DNA from: Coriobacteriia bacterium
GTDB lineage: Bacteria; Actinomycetota; Coriobacteriia; Anaerosomatales; PALSA-660
Assembly (NCBI GenBank): GCA_030651905.1
Contig: JAUSBS010000048.1
Location: 1-46,422 of the forward strand
Reading direction: 5' to 3'
DNA: 46,422 bases
Positions within the stretch are counted from its first letter, which is position 1, and each line of letters opens with the position of its first letter. Below the pieces are notes generated by a model that ran no database searches, was not told the DNA's origin, and saw nothing but the letters and a program-made list of their open reading frames with translations. Below, piece after piece: positions 5,931 through 38,069 of this stretch. Position numbers and translations under genes: made by a program.

Positions 5931-6470
5931 ATGACGACACTCGTATCCAAAGACGCCATGCGGCGGATCGCCACGAGCCTCGCCAGGCGCGGTTATCGCA
6001 TCGTTGTGCCGCCGCCGATGAAGGCGCAGCTCTTCGCCACGCGACAGGGTCATCGGCTGGGCCCGCTCCTGCCCTTCACCGACTTCGTCGCCATCCACGA
6101 GCTTCCCGACGAGGCAGACGGACCGACCTTCGAGAGGCTCCACGTCGCGACCATGGCGTACGCCGAATCCCAGACGAACGTCCCGCGCATGCTGCGCTAC
6201 CGCGTTCCCAACGCCGTCACGATCGGTGTCACCGACTCCGAGCCTTCACCGACGCTGTGTGCCGCAGTCGGACGGGCCCGCCTGCGCTCACGGATGCAGA
6301 TCGGTGCGCAGGAGTCGACGTACCTTCTCGACCTCGTGGCAGAGACCCTTCACGGCACCGCCATGAAGCGCACGGCCATCGGCGGCGACGCCGCGAAGGC
6401 CGCGAGCGCCGATCCCGCCAACCGTGTCCGCCGCATGATGGAGCAGCTCGCCGGCGAACTGTTCGCCTGA
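5931..6470 (+). CDS. Hypothetical soluble protein, unknown function (179 aa)
   Basis: Unrecognised. I start at ATG 5931 because GGGGGAG lies 9 bases upstream; the track start at 5868 would add a stretch that overlaps the upstream small ORF. The protein begins MTTLVSKDAMRRIATSLARR, reads as mixed alpha/beta with no membrane segment, and ends in a basic, Ala-rich helical region (NRVRRMMEQLAGELFA). The segment RGYRIVVPPPMKAQLFATRQ suggests a beta strand followed by a helix. It follows the two membrane microproteins by 43 bases on the same strand, and rpsO follows. No catalytic motif is evident to me. Codon use matches its neighbours, so there is no sign of recent transfer. Confidence 0.7.
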   Translation: MTTLVSKDAMRRIATSLARRGYRIVVPPPMKAQLFATRQGHRLGPLLPFTDFVAIHELPDEADGPTFERLHVATMAYAESQTNVPRMLRYRVPNAVTIGVTDSEPSPTLCAAVGRARLRSRMQIGAQESTYLLDLVAETLHGTAMKRTAIGGDAAKAASADPANRVRRMMEQLAGELFA

Positions 6471-6505
6471 GGCTGCCAGCTGCTCATGCCATCGTCCCCG
6501 CCGTG

Positions 6506-6514
6506 TGCTACACT
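6506..6514 (+). promoter_or_regulatory. Extended -10 promoter upstream of rpsO
   Basis: TGCTACACT is a TG-N-TACACT extended -10 element. No good -35 is visible, as is often the case with extended -10 promoters. Transcription would begin near 6521, giving an rpsO leader of about 95 bases. The leader carries the near-identical direct repeats GTACTTGGAG (6539-6548) and GTACTTGAAG (6593-6602). S15 usually represses its own mRNA through a leader structure; whether these repeats take part is unknown. Confidence 0.45.
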
Positions 6515-6614
6515 ACACCGGCTCTACAGACAGGCCCCGTACTTGGAGTGCCGCCCCCACCGGCGCGCTCTCGGACGGAGGCGACACACAAGGTACTTGA
6601 AGGGTGGAACTGCT

Positions 6615-6884
6615 ATGCCGCTTGAGAAGGACGTCAAGACTGAGATCATCGGTGAGCACAAGAAGCACGACACCGACACCGGATCGCCCGAAGTCCAGGT
6701 CGCGCTGCTCTCCAAGCGCATCTCCGACCTCACCGAGCACCTGCGCACCCACAAGCACGACCACCACTGCCGCCGTGGGCTGCTCAAGCTCGTCGGCCAG
6801 CGCCGCCGGATGCTCAACTACATCAAGAAGAACGACATCGAGCGCTACCGTGCGATCGTCAGCAAGCTGGGCCTGCGTGGCTAG
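6615..6884 (+). CDS. rpsO: 30S ribosomal protein S15
   Basis: Primary 16S rRNA-binding protein of the 30S central domain. The 89-residue length is exactly the family norm. Signatures include [40 protein letters not shown] and [19 protein letters not shown]. The start is ATG 6615, preceded by AAGGGTGGA. The track start at 6486 would add 43 residues that the family lacks. pnp follows after 146 bases, the classic rpsO-pnp pair, with two hairpins between them. Confidence 0.98.
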
Positions 6885-6913
6885 GCTTTCTCGACACTGA
6901 TGGGTTTGCGTAC

Positions 6914-7006
6914 GGAAGCGGGGGAGTAGTCTCCCTCGCTTCCGAGCATATAGAGGGACGTGAATAGAGATCGTCCCCGAGGCGCGCGCCGGCAAGGGCC
7001 GGGCGC
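6914..7006 (+). promoter_or_regulatory. rpsO-pnp intergenic stem-loops (likely processing/autoregulatory leader)
   Basis: Two stem-loops lie between rpsO and pnp. The first (6914-6943) is a 13-bp stem GGAAGCGGGGGAG / CTCCCTCGCTTCC with loop TAGT and a single G-U pair, not followed by a U-tract. The second (6984-7006) is GCGCGCCGGC / GCCGGGCGC with one bulged base. In E. coli the corresponding region is cut by RNase III and PNPase then represses its own mRNA. The position and the long duplex here suggest a similar arrangement, which is inference. Confidence 0.55.
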
Positions 7007-7030
7007 ATATGAAGGAAGAGGCTAAAGAGG

Positions 7031-9232
7031 ATGGGAAAGGTAACCGAGACGTTCGAACTGTACGGCAAGAGCTACACCCTGGAGACCGGCGAGCTGGCCA
7101 AGCAGGCCGGCGGCGCGATGGTCGTCCGTCAGGGCGATACGATCGTGCTCGTCACCGCCACAGCATCGAAGAACCCGAAGGATCTGGACTTCTTCCCGCT
7201 GACCGTGGACTTCGAGGAGCGCATGTACGCCGCGGGCAAGCTGCCCGGCGGATTCATCAAGCGTGAGAGCCGGCCGTCCGAGAAGGCCACACTGACCGCG
7301 CGCATGATCGACCGCCCGATCCGCTCGTCGTTCGCCGACGGGTTCCGCAACGAGGTCCAGGTCATCGCAACGGTGCTCTCGGCCGACCAGATCAACCAGC
7401 CCGACGTCATCTCCATCATGGGTGCCTCCAGCGCTCTTCTGGCTGCCGGTATCCCGTTCGAGGGCCCGCTCGCCGGCGTGCGTGTCTGCCGCGATGAGAA
7501 CGGTGAGTTCCTCGTCAACCCGTCCTTCGAAGAGGCCGAGGCGTCCGATCTCGATCTCGTCGTCGCGGGCAGCAAGGACGCCGTCTACATGCTCGAGGCC
7601 GGCGCCCGTGAAGTCACCGAAGAGGACATGCTCGCCGCCCTCATGTTCGCGCAGGAGGCCATCGGCAAGTTCTGCGAGGTGCAGGAGCGTTTCCTCGCCA
7701 AGCTCGAGATCACCCCGATGGAGGTCGCTCTCCAGGTCATCGACCCCGCGCTGAAGGATTCGATCTTCGCCGCCGGTGCCGACAAGATGAAGACCGCGCT
7801 GCACAACTCGGACAAGCACGCCCGCATGGGTGCGGTCCAGGCCGTCAAGGACGAGATCCTCGCGACGTATTCGCCCGAGGAGCTCGCCGCATCCGGCAAG
7901 GACATCAAGGCATCGCTCAAGCAGCTCGAGAAGAAGACCATGCGCGCCATGGTCCTCGACGAGGGCGAGCGCGCCGACGGCCGTGCGCTCGACGAGGTCC
8001 GCACCATCTCCAACGCCGCCGGCTACCTGCCGCGCGCCCACGGTTCGGGCCTGTTCACCCGCGGCCAGACGCAGGTGCTCTCCGTCCTGACGCTGGGGAT
8101 GCTCTCCGAGTGGCAGCGCATCGACACGATCGACGTGTCCGAGGGCAAGCGCTACATCCACCACTACAACTTCCCGCCGTTCTCCACCGGCGAGACGGGC
8201 TTCATGCGTGGCCCGAAGCGCCGCGACATCGGTCACGGCGCCCTGGCCGAGCGCGCGCTCTTCCCGGTCATCCCGGTCGAGGAGGAGTTCCCCTACACCC
8301 TGCGCATCGTCTCCGAGGTGCTCGAGTCCAACGGTTCCAGCTCCATGGGCTCCGTCTGCGGCTCCACCCTCGCGCTGATGGACGCAGGCGTGCCGATCGC
8401 GGCCCCGGTCTCCGGCATCGCGATGGGACTCATCAAGGAGGGCGACAAGGTCGCCATCCTGACCGACATCCAGGGTCTCGAGGACTTCCTCGGCGACATG
8501 GACTTCAAGGTCGCCGGCACGCCCAACGGCATCACCGCCATGCAGATGGACAACAAGGCCAAGGGCCTGTCCGTCGACATCCTGCGCCGTGCCCTCATGC
8601 AGGCGAAGGAAGGCCGCGCGTTCATCCTCGCCAAGATGCTCGAGGAGATCGCCGAGCCGCGCGCCGAGCTGTCTGAGTTCGCGCCGCGCGTCATCACCAT
8701 CAAGATCCCGACCGACAAGATCCGCGACATCATCGGCCCGGGCGGCAAGATGATCCGTTCGATCATCGAGGCCACCGGTGCCGACATCGACGTCAACGAC
8801 GACGGCACCATCTACATCGCCAGCCGCGACCAGGGTGGCGAGGAAGCGGTCCGCCGCATCCAGATGATCACCAAGGAGCCGGAGATCGGCGAGAAGTACA
8901 CCGGCCGCGTGGTCGGCATCCAGGCGTTCGGCGCGTTCGTCGAGCTGTTCCCGGGCAAGGACGGCCTGCTGCACATCTCGCGGGTCGCCAAGGGCCGCGT
9001 GGACAAGGTCGAGGACGTCCTCAATGTCGGCGACGCCGTCGAGGTCGAGATCATCGACATCGACGACCGCGGCAAGGTGTCCCTCGACCGCACCGACAAG
9101 CCGGACGCTCCGCCCAGCTCGGGCAAGCCCGCCGGTGACCGCCCGCAGGGCGATCGTCCCAGCGGCGACCGTGGCCCGCGCCCCGGTGACCGCTCCGGCA
9201 GTGGTAGCGGCGGACCGCGCCGGCGCCACTAG
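7031..9232 (+). CDS. pnp: Polyribonucleotide nucleotidyltransferase (PNPase)
   Basis: Phosphorolytic 3'-5' exoribonuclease of mRNA decay. The 733-residue protein has two RNase PH domains flanking the all-helical domain; the second contains FMRGPKRRDIGHGALAERAL and GSSSMGSVCGSTLALMDAG. A KH domain (IPTDKIRDIIGPGGKMIRSI, about residues 557-576) and an S1 domain (KYTGRVVGIQAFGAFVELFP) follow. The C-terminus is an unusual tail of about 40 residues rich in Gly, Asp, Arg and Pro, with repeated GDRP/GDRS units and a basic end (GGPRRRH). ATG 7031 is preceded by AAAGAGG. The rpsO-pnp-M16 protease order matches Bacillus. Confidence 0.98.
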   Translation: MGKVTETFELYGKSYTLETGELAKQAGGAMVVRQGDTIVLVTATASKNPKDLDFFPLTVDFEERMYAAGKLPGGFIKRESRPSEKATLTARMIDRPIRSSFADGFRNEVQVIATVLSADQINQPDVISIMGASSALLAAGIPFEGPLAGVRVCRDENGEFLVNPSFEEAEASDLDLVVAGSKDAVYMLEAGAREVTEEDMLAALMFAQEAIGKFCEVQERFLAKLEITPMEVALQVIDPALKDSIFAAGADKMKTALHNSDKHARMGAVQAVKDEILATYSPEELAASGKDIKASLKQLEKKTMRAMVLDEGERADGRALDEVRTISNAAGYLPRAHGSGLFTRGQTQVLSVLTLGMLSEWQRIDTIDVSEGKRYIHHYNFPPFSTGETGFMRGPKRRDIGHGALAERALFPVIPVEEEFPYTLRIVSEVLESNGSSSMGSVCGSTLALMDAGVPIAAPVSGIAMGLIKEGDKVAILTDIQGLEDFLGDMDFKVAGTPNGITAMQMDNKAKGLSVDILRRALMQAKEGRAFILAKMLEEIAEPRAELSEFAPRVITIKIPTDKIRDIIGPGGKMIRSIIEATGADIDVNDDGTIYIASRDQGGEEAVRRIQMITKEPEIGEKYTGRVVGIQAFGAFVELFPGKDGLLHISRVAKGRVDKVEDVLNVGDAVEVEIIDIDDRGKVSLDRTDKPDAPPSSGKPAGDRPQGDRPSGDRGPRPGDRSGSGSGGPRRRH

Positions 9233-19899: not shown

Positions 19900-21197
19900 T
19901 GTCCGCCCGCCGGGTCGTCCATATCCTGACCTTGGGCTGCCCGAAGAACGAGGTCGACTCGGACCGGATGGCCGCCTCGCTCGCGCCGTCCTTCGACCTG
20001 GTCGACGACCTTGATGCGGCCGACGTCGCGATCGTGAACACCTGCTCGTTCATCCGCGAGGCCACCGAGGAGTCGATCGGCACGGTCCTCGGACTCACCG
20101 GCGAGTGGAAGGCGGCCCGCCCGGGCCGTTTCGTCATCGTCGCCGGCTGCATGCCCGCACGCTACGGTGACGAGCTCGCCGCCTCGATGCCCGAGGTCGA
20201 CGCGTTCGTTCCGGTAGCGTCCGAAGCCGGATTGGCGCGCGTCGTGGCCGGACTCACCGGTTCCGCACTCGTGAGCGAGCCCGCTGCACCCACGCGCACG
20301 GCACCCGGTCCGTCCGCGTACATCCAAGTCGCGGACGGCTGCCATCGCCGCTGCACCTTCTGCACGATCCCCGACATCCGTGGCGACTACGTGAGCCGCT
20401 CGCTTCCCGATGTGCTCGCGGAGGCGCGCCTGCTTGTCGACGGCGGCGCTCGGGAGCTGATCCTCGTGGGGCAGGACGTCTCCTCGTGGGGGAGGGACCT
20501 GCCGGGCGCACCCGTCCTGGCCGATCTCGTCCGCGAGGTGGCGCGTGTCGAGGGCCTTTCATGGCTTCGTCTGATGTACGTCCAGCCCGACGGCATCACG
20601 CCGGAGCTGCTGGACGTGATGGCGACAGAGCCCACCGTGTGTCGATACCTCGACATGCCACTGCAGCACGCCTCCCGCCCCGTGCTGCGCCGCATGGCGC
20701 GTTCGGGCGACGCGGCCGAGTTCCTGCGCCTCATCGGCGTGATCCGCGACCTTGTGCCGGGAGTCTTCCTGCGAACCACACTCATCTCTGGCTTCCCGGG
20801 CGAGACGCGCGATGACGCGGCGCGCCTTGTCGACTTCGTGCGCGATGCGGGCATCGACTACGTGGGGGTCTTCGAGTACTCGGCCGAGGAAGGCACGCCG
20901 GCGGCGACCATGGACGCCCAGGTCTCCGCACGCACGCGCCGCGCCCGCACGCAGCGACTGCGGGACGCCGCTTTCGAGGTCGGTACGGAAAGGGCCGCGC
21001 TGCTCGTGGGACGCACCCTGGCTGTGCTCGTCGAAGGCGTGGACGAGGACGGCGTCACCATCGGACGCCATCGGGGGCAGGCGCCTGAGATCGACGGCCT
21101 CGTGTTGCTCGATCGGGATCTCGAGCCCGGTACGCTCGTGGAAGTCGAGATCGTCGACGCGTTGGGCTACGATCTCGTAGGTGAGGTGAGATCGTGA
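19899..21197 (+). CDS. rimO: Ribosomal protein S12 methylthiotransferase
   Basis: Radical-SAM enzyme that methylthiolates an Asp of ribosomal protein S12. The 432-residue protein has an N-terminal UPF0004 domain with cluster cysteines at 14, 49 and 84. The radical-SAM triad is CHRRCTFC (Cys148, 152, 155), and a C-terminal TRAM domain ends the protein (ALLVGRTLAVLVEGVDEDGV). LGCPKNEVDSD is diagnostic of RimO, whereas MiaB (also in this window) has FGCQMNKHDSE. It overlaps yajQ at its start and pgsA at its end (GTGA). Confidence 0.95.
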   Translation: MSARRVVHILTLGCPKNEVDSDRMAASLAPSFDLVDDLDAADVAIVNTCSFIREATEESIGTVLGLTGEWKAARPGRFVIVAGCMPARYGDELAASMPEVDAFVPVASEAGLARVVAGLTGSALVSEPAAPTRTAPGPSAYIQVADGCHRRCTFCTIPDIRGDYVSRSLPDVLAEARLLVDGGARELILVGQDVSSWGRDLPGAPVLADLVREVARVEGLSWLRLMYVQPDGITPELLDVMATEPTVCRYLDMPLQHASRPVLRRMARSGDAAEFLRLIGVIRDLVPGVFLRTTLISGFPGETRDDAARLVDFVRDAGIDYVGVFEYSAEEGTPAATMDAQVSARTRRARTQRLRDAAFEVGTERAALLVGRTLAVLVEGVDEDGVTIGRHRGQAPEIDGLVLLDRDLEPGTLVEVEIVDALGYDLVGEVRS

Positions 21198-23728: not shown

Positions 23729-24805
23729 ATGGAGCGCGAGCAGATCGACAAGGTCTTGGAACTGACGAAGGAACAGGTCGAGCGCAAGTTCGGCAAGGGT
23801 TCGCTGATGCGCCTCGGTGAGCAGGCGAACATCGGTGCTATGCCCGCCATCCCCACCGGCTCACTCGCGCTGGACGCCGCACTCGGCATCGGTGGCGTCC
23901 CACGCGGCCGCATCGTCGAGATCTACGGCCCCGAGTCCGGCGGTAAGACCACACTCGCCCTGCAGATCATCGCCGAGGCGCAGCGTCTGGGGGGCATCGC
24001 GGCGTTCATCGATGCTGAGCACGCCATGGATCCGGCCTACGCCGCCAAGATCGGCGTCGACATCGACGATGTCCTCATCAGCCAGCCGGACACCGGCGAA
24101 CAGGCCCTCGAGATCGCCGACATGCTGGTCCGCAGCGGTGCGATCGACGTCGTCGTCATCGACTCGGTCGCGGCCCTCGTCCCACGTGCGGAACTCGAAG
24201 GTGAGATGGGCGACGTCACGGTCGGCCTCCAGGCCCGCCTGATGAGCCAGGCCCTGCGCAAGCTCGCCGGTTCCCTGTCCAAGTCCAACACCACATGCAT
24301 CTTCATCAACCAGTTGCGCGAGAAGATCGGCGTCATGTTCGGCAGCCCCGAGACCACGTCGGGCGGTCGCGCGCTGAAGTTCTACGCTTCCATCCGCATC
24401 GACATCCGTCGCATCGACTCCATCAAGCAAGGCACGGACATCGTGGGCAACCGCGTGCGTGCGAAGGTCGTCAAGAACAAGGTCGCTCCGCCCTTCCGGA
24501 TGGCCGAGTTCGACCTCATGTACGGTCAGGGCATCAGCAAGGAGGGCTCGCTCATCGACCTGGGTGTCGAGGAGGGGATCGTCGCCAAGTCCGGATCGTG
24601 GTTCAACTACGGCGAGGAACGCCTCGGGCAAGGCCGCGAATCCGCGAAGGACTTCCTGCGCGAGCACACCGACATCCGTGATCGCATCGAATCGCAGATC
24701 CGTGAGCGGCTGGGGCTCCTGCAGCAGCGCCCCAACGGCGAGGATGCACCGGAGGCCGCGCCCGAGCCTGCTCCCAGTGAGGCGAAGACGCCCAAGACCA
24801 AGTAG
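23729..24805 (+). CDS. recA: Recombinase RecA
   Basis: ATP-dependent strand-exchange protein of homologous recombination and co-protease for LexA. The 358-residue protein has Walker A GPESGGKT at residues 67-74, [32 protein letters not shown], the L2/DNA-binding region [21 protein letters not shown] and [13 protein letters not shown] short acidic Pro/Ala tail ends the protein. ATG 23729 follows AAGGAG. It lies behind an SOS-box promoter, with recX 39 bases downstream. Confidence 0.99.
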
Positions 24806-24844: not shown

Positions 24845-25519
24845 TTGACGCTCATCTCGGAGATCGTCGCCCCGCGCCGCGGCTCGCGGCTCCGCGTGCT
24901 GCACGCCGATCACGAGGAGTGGCGTCGAACGTCCGCCGACGTGGTCAAAGCTCTCGGCCTTCGCGCGGGTCACATCGAGCCCGCGGAGGACCTCGCGGCC
25001 AGGATCGAGGCGGCTGAGCCGACCTTCGCACGCGACAGGGCCTACAGGCTCCTGGCGTACCGCGACCGGACCGCCCATGAACTGCGTGAACGGCTCGTCG
25101 AAGACGGCTACCCAGCCGCTCTCTCCGCCGGCATCGTCGCAGACCTCACTCGTGTCGGCCTCGTGGACGACGACCGCTACGCGCGTACGAGCGCTCGCAG
25201 CCTCGCCACCGTGCGCGGGTTCGGTCGCAACCGGATCCTTCGCGAACTGGAAGCGAAGGGGGTAGATCCCGGTCTGGCAGCGGCAGCCACTACAGAGGCG
25301 CTCCCTGAACACGACGAAGAAGCGTCGGCGCTGCGGCTCGCGCGGGCGCTCACGTCGCGGCCCAAGGCCGACGTGGCGCGCATCGCGACACGCCTCGCCC
25401 GAAAGGGTTTCGCTCCGGCCCTCGCCCTGAAGACGGCGCGCCGAGCGTTGGCGGAGCTCGCCGATGGCGACGCCCCTGACCTGCCCGTTCTCGACGACTG
25501 GCCGCCCCCGGAGCGGTGA
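24845..25519 (+). CDS. recX: Regulatory protein RecX
   Basis: Modulator that binds RecA filaments and limits or redirects their activity. The 224-residue protein has an N-terminal basic extension and RecX three-helix repeats. The clearest is ARDRAYRLLAYRDRTAHELRERLVEDGY, followed by LVDDDRYARTSARSLATVRGFGRNRILRELEAKGV. The start is TTG 24845, supported by GGGGAGG just upstream. It follows recA on the same strand and is probably co-transcribed and SOS-induced. A 373-base gene-free gap follows. Confidence 0.9.
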   Translation: MTLISEIVAPRRGSRLRVLHADHEEWRRTSADVVKALGLRAGHIEPAEDLAARIEAAEPTFARDRAYRLLAYRDRTAHELRERLVEDGYPAALSAGIVADLTRVGLVDDDRYARTSARSLATVRGFGRNRILRELEAKGVDPGLAAAATTEALPEHDEEASALRLARALTSRPKADVARIATRLARKGFAPALALKTARRALAELADGDAPDLPVLDDWPPPER

Positions 25520-25538: not shown

Positions 25539-25568
25539 TTGACGCTTGTGCGCCCGCGGCGATACGAT
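25539..25568 (+). promoter_or_regulatory. Promoter of the rny transcript
   Basis: TTGACG (25539-25544) and TACGAT (25563-25568) are separated by 18 bases, a good vegetative-type promoter just after recX. RNA would start near 25575, leaving a leader of about 318 bases before the rny ATG at 25893. Confidence 0.6.
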
Positions 25569-25574
25569 AGCCGC

Positions 25575-25892
25575 GGCAAATGTGATCACTCCGCGCATCG
25601 AGGGTTCATGTAGCGGGGTTTGTGTGCTGGATCGTGGTTCCGAGGTACGGCGAACGGGCGCTTTGCGCCCTATCCGCATATGCGGTCACCGCGATACGCA
25701 TACACGAGTCTGTATCGCCTTTGCCGGACGCCGAGTGTGTCCGGCTTGTTCGTAGAGGGACCCGGCAGGGGAGTTTCGCCGGGTCCACGGGTGGGGCCCA
25801 TCGGGGTGTCCGCCTCCAAGCCGGTCCTCCTCTCGGCGTGCCATGAGAAGGCACACGTGTGACGCGAAACGCGTCCGAAGGGAGGGCACCAG
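25575..25892 (+). promoter_or_regulatory. Long structured 5' leader (candidate RNA element) of rny
   Basis: This is the main gene-free stretch of the window (recX stop to rny, 373 bases). It holds a dense series of hairpins. They are GGGCGC-TTT-GCGCCC (25656-25670), palindrome CCGCATATGCGG (25674-25685), GCGATAC/GTATCGC (25691-25718), GCCGGAC/GTCCGGC (25723-25745), GACCCGGC/GCCGGGTC (25759-25785), GTGCC/GGCAC (25838-25854) and GACGCG-AAA-CGCGTC (25861-25875). The last ends just before the GGGAGGG ribosome site at 25880-25886. No short ORF with a ribosome site is convincing, no U-tract follows any stem, and I match it to no known riboswitch, SRP, 6S, tmRNA or RNase P RNA. Confidence 0.6.
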
Positions 25893-27422
25893 ATGGCATT
25901 CGTCTACGCATTCATCGCACTCGTCGCCGGAACTGCCCTCGGCTTCTTCATCCGCAAGGTCTTCATCGAAGGCCAGGACTCACGCGCCCGCATGACAGCG
26001 GAGCGTATCGTCACCGACGCGGAGAAGCAGGCCGAGACACTCAAGAAGGAAGCGATCCTCGAGGCCAAGGACGAGGTCTTCAGTCTGAAGGCCGAAGCCG
26101 AGACCGAGGCCAAGGAGCGCCGCAAGGACCTCACCGCACTCGAGACCCGTCTCATGCAGCGCGAGGAATCCATCGAGCGCCGCGCCGAGTCGCTCGACAA
26201 GCGCGAGCATCAGCTCTCGAGCGCCCAGGGCCAGATCGAGAAGCAGGGCAAGGACCTCGAGGACGCGATCGCCCTCGAGAAGTCCCGACTCGAAGCGCTC
26301 GCCGGCATGACGTCGGACGAGGCTCGCGCCGTGCTCATGCAGCGCATCGAGGACGACGTCAAGCATGACGCCGCCGCCATGATCCGCGAGGTCGAGACGC
26401 GCGCCCGCGAGGAGGCCGACAAGAAGGCCCGCAACATCGTCGGCATCGCCATCCAGCGCGTCGCCGCCGACCACACGGCGGAGTCCACCGTCTCGGTCGT
26501 GCACATCCCGAGCGACGACATGAAGGGCCGCATCATCGGCCGCGAAGGCCGCAACATCCGCGCCTTCGAGCAGATGACCGGCATCAACCTCATCATCGAC
26601 GACACCCCCGAGGCGGTCATCCTCAGCAGCTTCGATCCGGTGCGACGCGAGATCGGCCGCATCACGCTTGAGTCGCTCCTGGCCGACGGCCGCATCCACC
26701 CGGCACGCATCGAGGAGATGTTCGGCAAGGCCGAGAAGATCGTCGAGCAGCAGGTCCATGAGGCCGGCGAGCAGGCGGTCTTCGAGACACAGGTACACGG
26801 ACTGCACGCCGAGCTCGTCCGGACGCTCGGACGCCTGAAGTTCCGCACCAGCTACGGCCAGAACGTGCTCAAGCACTCCCTGGAAGTCAGCTACCTCGCC
26901 GGTGTCATGGCCTCGGAGCTCGGTGTCGACGTGAAGCTCGCGAAGCGCGCCGGCCTGCTGCATGACCTGGGCAAGGCCATCGACCACGAGGTCGAGGGTC
27001 CGCACGCCCTCATCGGCGCAGAGCTCGCCAAGCGCCTCGGTGAGCACAAGGAGATCGTCCACTGCATCGAGGCCCACCACGGTGACGTCGAGGCACAGAC
27101 CGTCGAGGCCGTTCTCGTCCAGGCCGCCGACGCGATCTCCGCCTCCCGCCCGGGCGCACGTCGCGAGACGATCGAGAGCTACATCAAGCGCCTCGAGAAG
27201 CTCGAGGAGCTCGCCAGTGCCCACAAGGGTGTCGAGAAGGTCTACGCGATGCAGGCAGGTCGCGAGATCCGCGTCATGGTCAAGCCGGAGCAGATCTCAG
27301 ATGCCGATTCGATCGTGCTGGCGAGAGATATCGCCAAGGAGATCGAGGAGCAGATGGAGTATCCCGGGCAGGTCAAGGTCATGGTGGTACGCGAGTCAAG
27401 GGCCATAGACTACGCGAAGTAG
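25893..27422 (+). CDS. rny: Ribonuclease Y
   Basis: Membrane-anchored endoribonuclease that initiates mRNA decay in Gram-positives. The 509-residue protein has one N-terminal membrane helix ([18 protein letters not shown]) and a long charged coiled coil (about residues 25-190). A KH domain follows with [20 protein letters not shown], then an HD domain whose metal motif is [15 protein letters not shown]. Motifs [19 protein letters not shown] and [21 protein letters not shown] are family-specific. ATG 25893 is preceded by GGGAGGG. It lies downstream of recA-recX as in Bacillus, but ymdB does not follow; a GHKL ATPase gene does. A strong terminator hairpin ends the transcript. Confidence 0.98.
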
Positions 27423-27506: not shown

Positions 27507-27547
27507 TGCAGAATGTCTGCTCGAGACCGCCGGACGCCGCCCACCGC

Positions 27548-27598
27548 AGAGCAGACCCCAGGGCAGAGCAGACCCCAGGGCAGACCCCAGACCAGACC
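27548..27598 (+). repeat. 17-bp tandem direct repeat upstream of the GHKL ATPase gene
   Basis: AGAGCAGACCCCAGGGC occurs twice head to tail (27548-27564 and 27565-27581). A degraded third copy follows (AGACCCCAGACCAGACC, 27582-27598). The array ends 24 bases before the TACACT -10 element. It could be an array of regulator sites or a replication-slippage product. Confidence 0.8.
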
Positions 27599-27622
27599 AT
27601 CAGAACGGGACTCGCGCTGCGC

Positions 27623-27628
27623 TACACT
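27623..27628 (+). promoter_or_regulatory. -10 element of a probably leaderless GHKL ATPase mRNA
   Basis: TACACT ends only 7 bases before ATG 27636. Transcription would then start at or next to the A of the ATG. No ribosome site precedes the ATG, consistent with a leaderless mRNA. No clear -35 is visible; the tandem repeat occupies the region just upstream. Confidence 0.5.
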
Positions 27629-27635
27629 GCTGTGC

Positions 27636-28712
27636 ATGGCTGACAACGACGCACTTCTTCACTTCGTCTCGTCCGTGGCGAACGACGCCCACGTCAAGGT
27701 CGAGGAGACACTTGGCGACGGGTTCGTGCGCCTCAACATCTCGGAGGCGGAACGCCGCCAGGCGAAGCACGACATCCGCACCTTCGAGGACATCGTGGTG
27801 GAGTTGCTGCGCAACTCGCGGGATGCGCACGCGCGGCGCATCTTCGTCGCGAACTCGCGGGACGGGGAGATGCGCTCCCTGACCGTGCTGGACGACGGCG
27901 TCGGTGTGCCCCGGCATCTGCACGAGAAGATATTCGAGCCGCGCGTGACGTCGAAGCTCGACACGATGGTCACCGACCGCTGGGGAGTGCATGGCCGCGG
28001 CATGGCGCTGTTCTCCGTGCGCAGCAACGTGGCCGATGCGAGAGTGGCCGCATCCGATTCGCACAAGGGTATGGCGCTGTCGATCCTCTCGGACACGACA
28101 GCACTTCCGGAACGCGCCGACCAGTCCAGCTGGCCGAGCGTCGGGATAGGGGAGGACGGCCGCCCGGCGATCGGGACCGGACCACACAACATCGTCCGCC
28201 GGGTCGTCGAGTTCGCGGTCGAGCACCCCGAGGTCGAGGTCTACATCGGAACGCCGACCGAGATCGTCGCCACTCTGCACATCCTGGCCCGAGACGAACT
28301 CGACTCCGCGCGCCTGCTCTTCTGCGACGACCCGGAACGCCTTGCGGTATGGCAGCGTCCGGCCGCATGCGCCGATGCCGCCGAACTCGTACGGATCGCC
28401 CGCTCGATCGGGCTCGCGGTATCCGAGCGCACTGCGCACCGCGTCCTGGGCGGCGAGGCGGCCTGCGTCGGGCCGGTCCTCCACCTCGTCATGCCCGCAC
28501 CGGAGCCGGGGGAGAAGCGACGCCCCGACATCTTCCGCGATCGGCGCGGCCTTCGTGTGCACCACACCGACCTCTCCGCGTTCCGACGCGGGCTGGAGGA
28601 CGCGTTCGACGTCATCGGTGAGCGTTACTACGTCCACATGAAGGGCGAACCGAGGGTGACGATCGGTCGCGACTCGATCACCGTGCGCTACGACATCGAG
28701 AAAGAGGACTGA
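27636..28712 (+). CDS. GHKL-type ATP-binding protein, unknown function
   Basis: A 358-residue protein with a GHKL ATPase fold (Hsp90, MutL, histidine kinase, gyrase B class). The N-box is ELLRNSRDAHARRI (Glu56, Asn60, Asp63), the G1 box is VLDDGVGVP (about 84-92) and the G2 box is GVHGRGMALFSV (117-128). No His-phosphoacceptor, receiver or membrane helix is present, and there is no MutL endonuclease or Hsp90 middle-domain motif I recognise. The C-terminal half contains LHLVMPAPEPGEKRRPDIFR and ends in basic/acidic beta-like sequence. I choose ATG 27636 over 27513 because a -10 element sits directly before it. The gene lies between rny and spoVS, where Bacillus has ymdB. The intact boxes indicate ATP binding; the role is unknown. 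Confidence 0.85.
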   Translation: MADNDALLHFVSSVANDAHVKVEETLGDGFVRLNISEAERRQAKHDIRTFEDIVVELLRNSRDAHARRIFVANSRDGEMRSLTVLDDGVGVPRHLHEKIFEPRVTSKLDTMVTDRWGVHGRGMALFSVRSNVADARVAASDSHKGMALSILSDTTALPERADQSSWPSVGIGEDGRPAIGTGPHNIVRRVVEFAVEHPEVEVYIGTPTEIVATLHILARDELDSARLLFCDDPERLAVWQRPAACADAAELVRIARSIGLAVSERTAHRVLGGEAACVGPVLHLVMPAPEPGEKRRPDIFRDRRGLRVHHTDLSAFRRGLEDAFDVIGERYYVHMKGEPRVTIGRDSITVRYDIEKED

Positions 28713-38021: not shown

Positions 38022-38069
38022 TTGCAATCGAACACGTGTTTGGTATCATCGGATGCGAACATACGTTCG
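38022..38069 (+). promoter_or_regulatory. Promoter of the LysM division suppressor with two LexA boxes
   Basis: TTGCAA (38022-38027) and TATCAT (38044-38049) form a promoter with a 16-base spacer. The near-perfect operator CGAACACGTGTTTG (38029-38042) fills the spacer. A perfect one, CGAACATACGTTCG (38056-38069), covers the expected RNA start. This is the layout expected of a tightly repressed SOS gene. Confidence 0.8.

Follow-up and report, generated by a model that had tools for sequence, protein, structure and literature searches.

The gap between recX and rny in the window (the whole 46,422-nt stretch of DNA that was analysed) encodes a conserved, structured RNA that is very probably the cis-acting leader of rny, the gene for ribonuclease Y. 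The fuller reading that we favour, in which transcription through this leader is partly terminated ahead of rny and RNase Y feeds back on its own synthesis, is on balance somewhat probable. Its two components are less secure: a contribution of premature termination, to which the hairpin and U tracts described below point, stands at about even chances, and feedback by RNase Y through the leader, argued from analogous systems, is a tentative proposal. RNase Y is a main mRNA-destroying enzyme that initiates mRNA decay in many bacteria without RNase E, and most work on the control of its level has been done in B. subtilis. The conserved, terminator-bearing rny leader found across the Coriobacteriia constitutes a new RNA family, with a range that includes the human gut genera Eggerthella and Gordonibacter, and makes feedback control of RNA decay open to direct test.

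The window belongs to the draft genome, in 130 contigs, of an uncultured Coriobacteriia bacterium, probably a metagenome assembly. In it, recA (23729–24805) and the forward-strand gene recX (24845–25519) are followed by rny (25893–27422, forward strand), whose 509-aa product matched TIGR03319 (RNase_Y) with 733 bits against a cut-off of 454 and whose ribosome-binding site, AAGGGAGGG, lies at 25878–25886 on the same strand. The 373 nt between the end of recX at 25519 and the rny ATG at 25893 contained no convincing ORF, in agreement with the initial annotation, which had described a gene-free stretch here. The initial annotation had put every other gap in the window at under 250 bases; one apparent exception, 6470–7031, contains a small ORF (6486–6884), which we take to be rpsO. 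The ORF that follows rny (27513–28712) gave only weak matches to GHKL-type ATPases of the MutL and histidine kinase families, all well under the family cut-offs.

The promoter TTGACG-N18-TACGAT that had been proposed after recX was present and proved to be a good sigma-70-type match (25539–25568, forward strand), composed of TTGACG at 25539–25544, an 18-nt spacer and TACGAT at 25563–25568, with a predicted start site near 25573–25576. Only two promoter matches of 9/12 were found between positions 20001 and 40000, namely that of the rny leader and one at 38022 which overlaps ORFs. The promoter was also kept in 55 relatives of the order, with TTGACG in 41 of them and a spacing of 18 in 49. A promoter matrix trained on the leaders gave these a median score of 23.1, a value that is partly circular because the matrix was built from the leader promoters themselves. 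This circularity affects the leader scores and not the low downstream score: between the last hairpin and rny the best median was −2.8 versus −3.4 in shuffled sequences, and no second rny promoter was found there with this matrix. Little space for a promoter is left between terminator and rny in the Eggerthellaceae. With no promoter signal after the last hairpin, the element is most likely the 5′ leader of rny rather than an independent sRNA gene.

Folding of positions 25572–25895 gave a minimum free energy of −153.7 kcal/mol, compared with −139.3 ± 6.1 in dinucleotide shuffles (z −2.35), and none of the 100 shuffles was as low. The region holds 14 inverted-repeat pairs of at least 6 nt, palindromes included, the clear ones being 25691–25697/25712–25718, 25723–25729/25739–25745 and 25758–25766/25778–25786. 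The earlier description of a folded leader rich in inverted repeats was thus borne out. The antisense strand folded in a similarly unusual manner (z −3.14), so single-sequence folding proves little and comparative evidence was needed, which provided the decisive support.

Four parts, all on the forward strand, were recognised in an RNA of about 170 nt (about 25575–25745): P1 is its closing stem, P2 a hairpin and P3/P4 a long arm, and a terminator-like hairpin comes last. P1 pairs its 5′ strand GGCAAAUGUGAUC (25575–25587) with GUAUCGCCUUUGCC (25712–25725), which sequesters the predicted 5′ end, and its pairs were kept at 92.6% in 42 sequences. P2 (25588–25619, helix 4) and the P3 arm (25622–25705, helix 5) showed changes on both sides in 6 of 7 and 6 of 6 pairs, respectively, and P3 is capped by the apical P4 hairpin GGGCGC-UUU-GCGCCC (25656–25670). 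A conserved A/U-containing strand, GCAUAUGCG (25676–25684), is a candidate RNase Y cleavage site; 51 of the 55 relatives had the AU motif beside the apical hairpin, where shuffled sequences gave an expectation of 20 and a maximum of 28. The terminator-like hairpin GGACG..GUCC, followed by the weak U tract UUGUUC, occupies 25726–25755, and its extended stem GCCGGAC/GUCCGGC (25723–25745) has its first three bases in common with P1. The hairpin stem was kept in 99.5% of cells, and the U tract varied among relatives from 1 to 7 U in 8 positions, being nearly gone (1 of 8) in L069, L088, L091 and L093, for example. The remainder of the leader (25756–25877) is not conserved; it holds CCUCCUCU, which can pair with the ribosome site here, a pairing that was not conserved in relatives. 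Both the length (about 59–206 nt) and the sequence from 25746 to the start codon vary among relatives. The leader of about 300 nt that had originally been proposed is thereby reduced to a conserved portion of about 170 nt (25575–25745), about half of it (25746–25890) not being conserved.

A direct DNA search within the family returned fragments only, and we therefore turned to synteny and covariance models. Within the order, the rny gene was identified in 69 genomes (two of them with distant HD-domain matches only); 31 named records, which overlap in part with these genomes, and representatives of other Coriobacteriia families were also covered. Nearly all upstream regions of the order shared one layout: TTGACG-N17/18-TAnnAT, then GGCAnnUGUGAU a few bases on, next a hairpin and a long arm, after which come AUCGCAnUUGCC or AUCACAUCUGCC as the complementary strand and a GC-rich hairpin GGACG..CGUCC. 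A covariance model built from 13 relatives, with the window outside the training set, matched positions 25574–25756 over its full length with 54.4 bits and an E-value of about 4e-17, E-values here being rough because calibration was short. Among 42 model-aligned sequences, 24 of 35 pairs showed double-sided changes, amounting to 189 double-sided cells versus 66 ± 6.5 in shuffled data and 27–52 with slid partners, in an alignment which, being model-based, is biased towards the structure. A plain MAFFT alignment of 13 sequences gave 11 such pairs and 25 double-sided cells versus 9.0 ± 2.3. Covariation was strong in P2 and P3, while P1 for the most part and the last hairpin were conserved in sequence. 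The initial annotation had staked its proposal beforehand on conservation and covariation in relatives, and both were found.

Linkage of the element to rny was equally consistent. A search of 300 Coriobacteriia genomes gave 42 full-length matches above 27 bits, one per genome, and all 42 lay directly upstream of rny by coordinates; rny followed in all 30 loci examined. A conserved, covarying structure thus lies directly upstream of rny, as befits a cis-regulatory leader. Weaker matches (below 26 bits, mostly 35–150 nt) were scattered and were mostly treated as chance, although in some divergent genomes of the order they do lie upstream of rny. The leader was kept with rny in L047, L054 and L060, where recX was not found upstream. 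No full-length match outside the Coriobacteriia was obtained from 397 genomes of the phylum, and the partial ones (49–66 nt, at most 35 bits) were taken as chance hairpins.

The element matches no known RNA family, as had been suspected: all 4227 families of Rfam release 15 were searched against the window without a match above the gathering threshold, covariation was strong and the element always lay upstream of rny. Relaxed thresholds gave chance matches only, and the rny leaders of 40 relatives matched no Rfam family, the hits being four tRNAs in L062. 6S RNA (RF00013), which resembles the rny leader in length and in its closed 5′/3′ ends and was a possible identity by size, was rejected: its match lies on another contig (C130:59249–59430), none was found at the rny leader, and most relatives also have a separate 6S RNA gene. 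At G000:C130:59249–59430 and loci L182–L201, 6S RNA lacks a terminator hairpin, and a ribosome site with a start codon (ATGCGCA or ATGCGTA) comes no more than about 30 nt later; the 6S RNA is therefore apparently co-transcribed with the conserved ORF downstream. Lacking a terminator hairpin, 6S RNA was unusable as a yardstick for U tracts. No DNA similarity of the leader was detected in plasmids, and literature searches found no published description of an rny leader element of this kind.

A promoter and structured leader before rny were also found in the Eggerthellaceae and in a Collinsella-like and an Atopobium-like family, the latter two names being read from relatedness. These family-specific leaders are likely to be homologous, judged by position and layout and not by a common model. 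The Eggerthellaceae leader is shorter (about 108 nt). GAGUG/CGCUC forms its closing stem, and it further has a hairpin, a linker containing AUA and, 41–71 nt before rny, the strong terminator GCCGGG..UUUUUU. Its model matched exactly once in every one of 59 genomes, rny was confirmed at 30 of 30 loci, and its structure covaries (45 cells versus 13.4 ± 3.1). The 5′ strand of P2 (ACGUACC) can alternatively pair with a 3′ GUGCGU beside P1 (columns 14–22 with 88–101 of A6); P2 and this alternative are both conserved and mutually exclusive. The alternative helix had a mean score of 13.4, compared with 8.8 in letter-shuffled sequences and 12.65 ± 0.28 with swapped partners, 8 of 2000 permutations being as high; the pairing would suit a switch, with modest statistical support. 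In the Collinsella-like family, GUCAUUUGU/GCAAAUG-U-C closes a GCUCAUC/GAUGAG hairpin, and later hairpins carry U tracts in several members. The Atopobium-like family has GGGUUC-hairpin-CUCCUGAAC in place of the terminator, together with a potential anti-ribosome-site, and CUCC(U/A)GAAC is conserved before the AGGAG site in 11 of 16 sequences. At loci L162–L173 and L175 of this family, a conserved GGCGGGUUC-hairpin-CUCC(U/A)GAAC was observed about 30–60 nt upstream of rny before the AGGAG ribosome site; this element may replace the terminator by ribosome-site masking.

Based on these features, we propose that transcription would start at about 25575 from the promoter at 25539–25568 and that the nascent RNA would fold into a closed three-way structure, with P1 closing the 5′ end around P2 and P3/P4, which would end flush with the terminator-like hairpin at 25723–25745. 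Part of the transcripts would stop or be released at this hairpin, and read-through would yield the rny mRNA, since no other promoter was found between hairpin and rny; read-through from recA-recX could also supply rny. The predicted terminator is strong in the Eggerthellaceae; in the window the U tract is weak (UUGUUC), and it is variable in the order. With 1–7 U in 8 positions, termination in the order would be incomplete or, in certain lineages, lost, and since the Atopobium-like family has no terminator at that place it is not universal. When in excess, RNase Y would probably cut the accessible A/U-rich strand of its own leader and so close a feedback loop, the leader probably acting as a brake on the RNase Y level. 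This step, which the initial annotation had raised as cutting or sensing of the leader by RNase Y, is proposed by analogy with RNase E and B. subtilis RNase Y, together with the conserved A/U strand; RNase Y has little sequence specificity, and the strand can therefore be called only a plausible target.

In B. subtilis, RNase Y cuts its own rny 5′ UTR and is described as cutting single-stranded A/U-rich sequence near structure (PMC10303841). That leader, of 164 nt, belongs to the same gene and likewise has its own promoter, of the sigma-A type, without homology of the leaders being implied, and cleavage by RNase Y feeds back there, as is proposed for the Coriobacteriia. It differs in having an A/U-rich 5′ end, in that no terminator is mentioned in the main text and in that cleavage of the coding region dominates (PMC10303841). 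In Synechocystis, RNase E cleaves the rne 5′ UTR in a U stretch, and full-length rne mRNA is governed by how stable the 5′ UTR is and by suppression of premature termination (PMC10989929). This endoribonuclease leader, with premature termination and self-cleavage in a U-rich stretch, is the closest functional parallel, although enzyme family and phylum are different. We know of no RNA structure common to the Synechocystis rne and Coriobacteriia rny leaders. The E. coli rne 5′ UTR (Rfam rne5) is likewise a structured leader for feedback control of an mRNA-decay endonuclease, but it serves RNase E rather than RNase Y, and no Rfam family matches at the rny leader; the likeness is one of function and not of homology. 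To our knowledge, no intrinsic terminator forms part of the E. coli mechanism. If RNase Y is the sensor in the Coriobacteriia, its leader would parallel these independently evolved RNase E leader controls.

A strong promoter of its own, a 5′ end that P1 sequesters, flush with the terminator-like hairpin, and the strong terminator of the Eggerthellaceae would also fit a stand-alone, abundant sRNA of about 170 nt with its 3′ end at the hairpin. Such an RNA would act in trans, RNase Y or the targets of RNase Y perhaps being what it acts on, and rny would be expressed by leak-through. A dual leader/sRNA precedent exists in greA, whose terminator-bearing leader gives rise to short RNAs (GraL) and autoregulates in cis (PMC6829880); it shares with rny the leader terminator before the gene, gene and sequence being unrelated. 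We nevertheless consider a stand-alone sRNA unlikely, as the element was never found away from rny (300 genomes per model) and stayed with it at the three loci where recX is not its neighbour, an rny promoter after the element was not found, and both termination signals have gone in places, the U tract from several lineages, the terminator from the Atopobium-like family. The separate small RNA that the initial annotation had offered as an alternative is weakened by the missing promoter after the final hairpin and by this independence from recX; terminated leader RNA might still occur as a by-product.

The junction and terminator are equally the layout of a riboswitch, in which P1-P2-P3 would bind a small ligand, the hairpin would serve as expression platform and rny would be tuned to a metabolite; the second conserved, mutually exclusive partner of the P2 5′ strand, seen in the Eggerthellaceae, would agree with this. 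Junction and loops, however, do not offer a large core of invariant unpaired bases, conservation is highest in P1 itself, and rny would be the sole gene under control, whereas a riboswitch class as a rule acts on several genes of one pathway, making this reading improbable. Lower still do we place translational control, in which the leader would hide the rny ribosome site and termination would have no role. Pairing of CCUCCUCU with AAGGGAGG is possible in the window, and the Atopobium-like CUCC(U/A)GAAC before AGGAG fits the same idea, but the ribosome-site partner lies outside the conserved element and differs in position and sequence between genomes of the window's order, where conserved ribosome-site masking was tested for and not found.

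The cis-acting leader of rny could also be part of a wider scheme, which we think rather unlikely: a class-wide RNA device of the Coriobacteriia, unrelated to known riboswitches, in which RNase Y activity would decide between premature termination and read-through, so that RNA-decay capacity would be measured on a dedicated decoy structure. Its output would have been swapped from a terminator (Eggerthellaceae and Collinsella-like family) to ribosome-site masking (Atopobium-like family), the sensing leader being kept.

Two further arrangements were observed near rny. In family f21 (L151:1–917 and L153:1–894), a CGUCAU stretch situated about 25–35 nt upstream has complementarity to the rny start region GGAGGGCGAUGAC, possibly another masking of the rny start site. 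The intrinsic terminator GCCGAGCAAAGUGCUCGGCUUUUUU, a strong one, is located about 50 nt upstream of rny, just before its ribosome site, in L063, which is a more distant MAG from the Actinomycetes; this suggests attenuation of rny beyond the Coriobacteriia.
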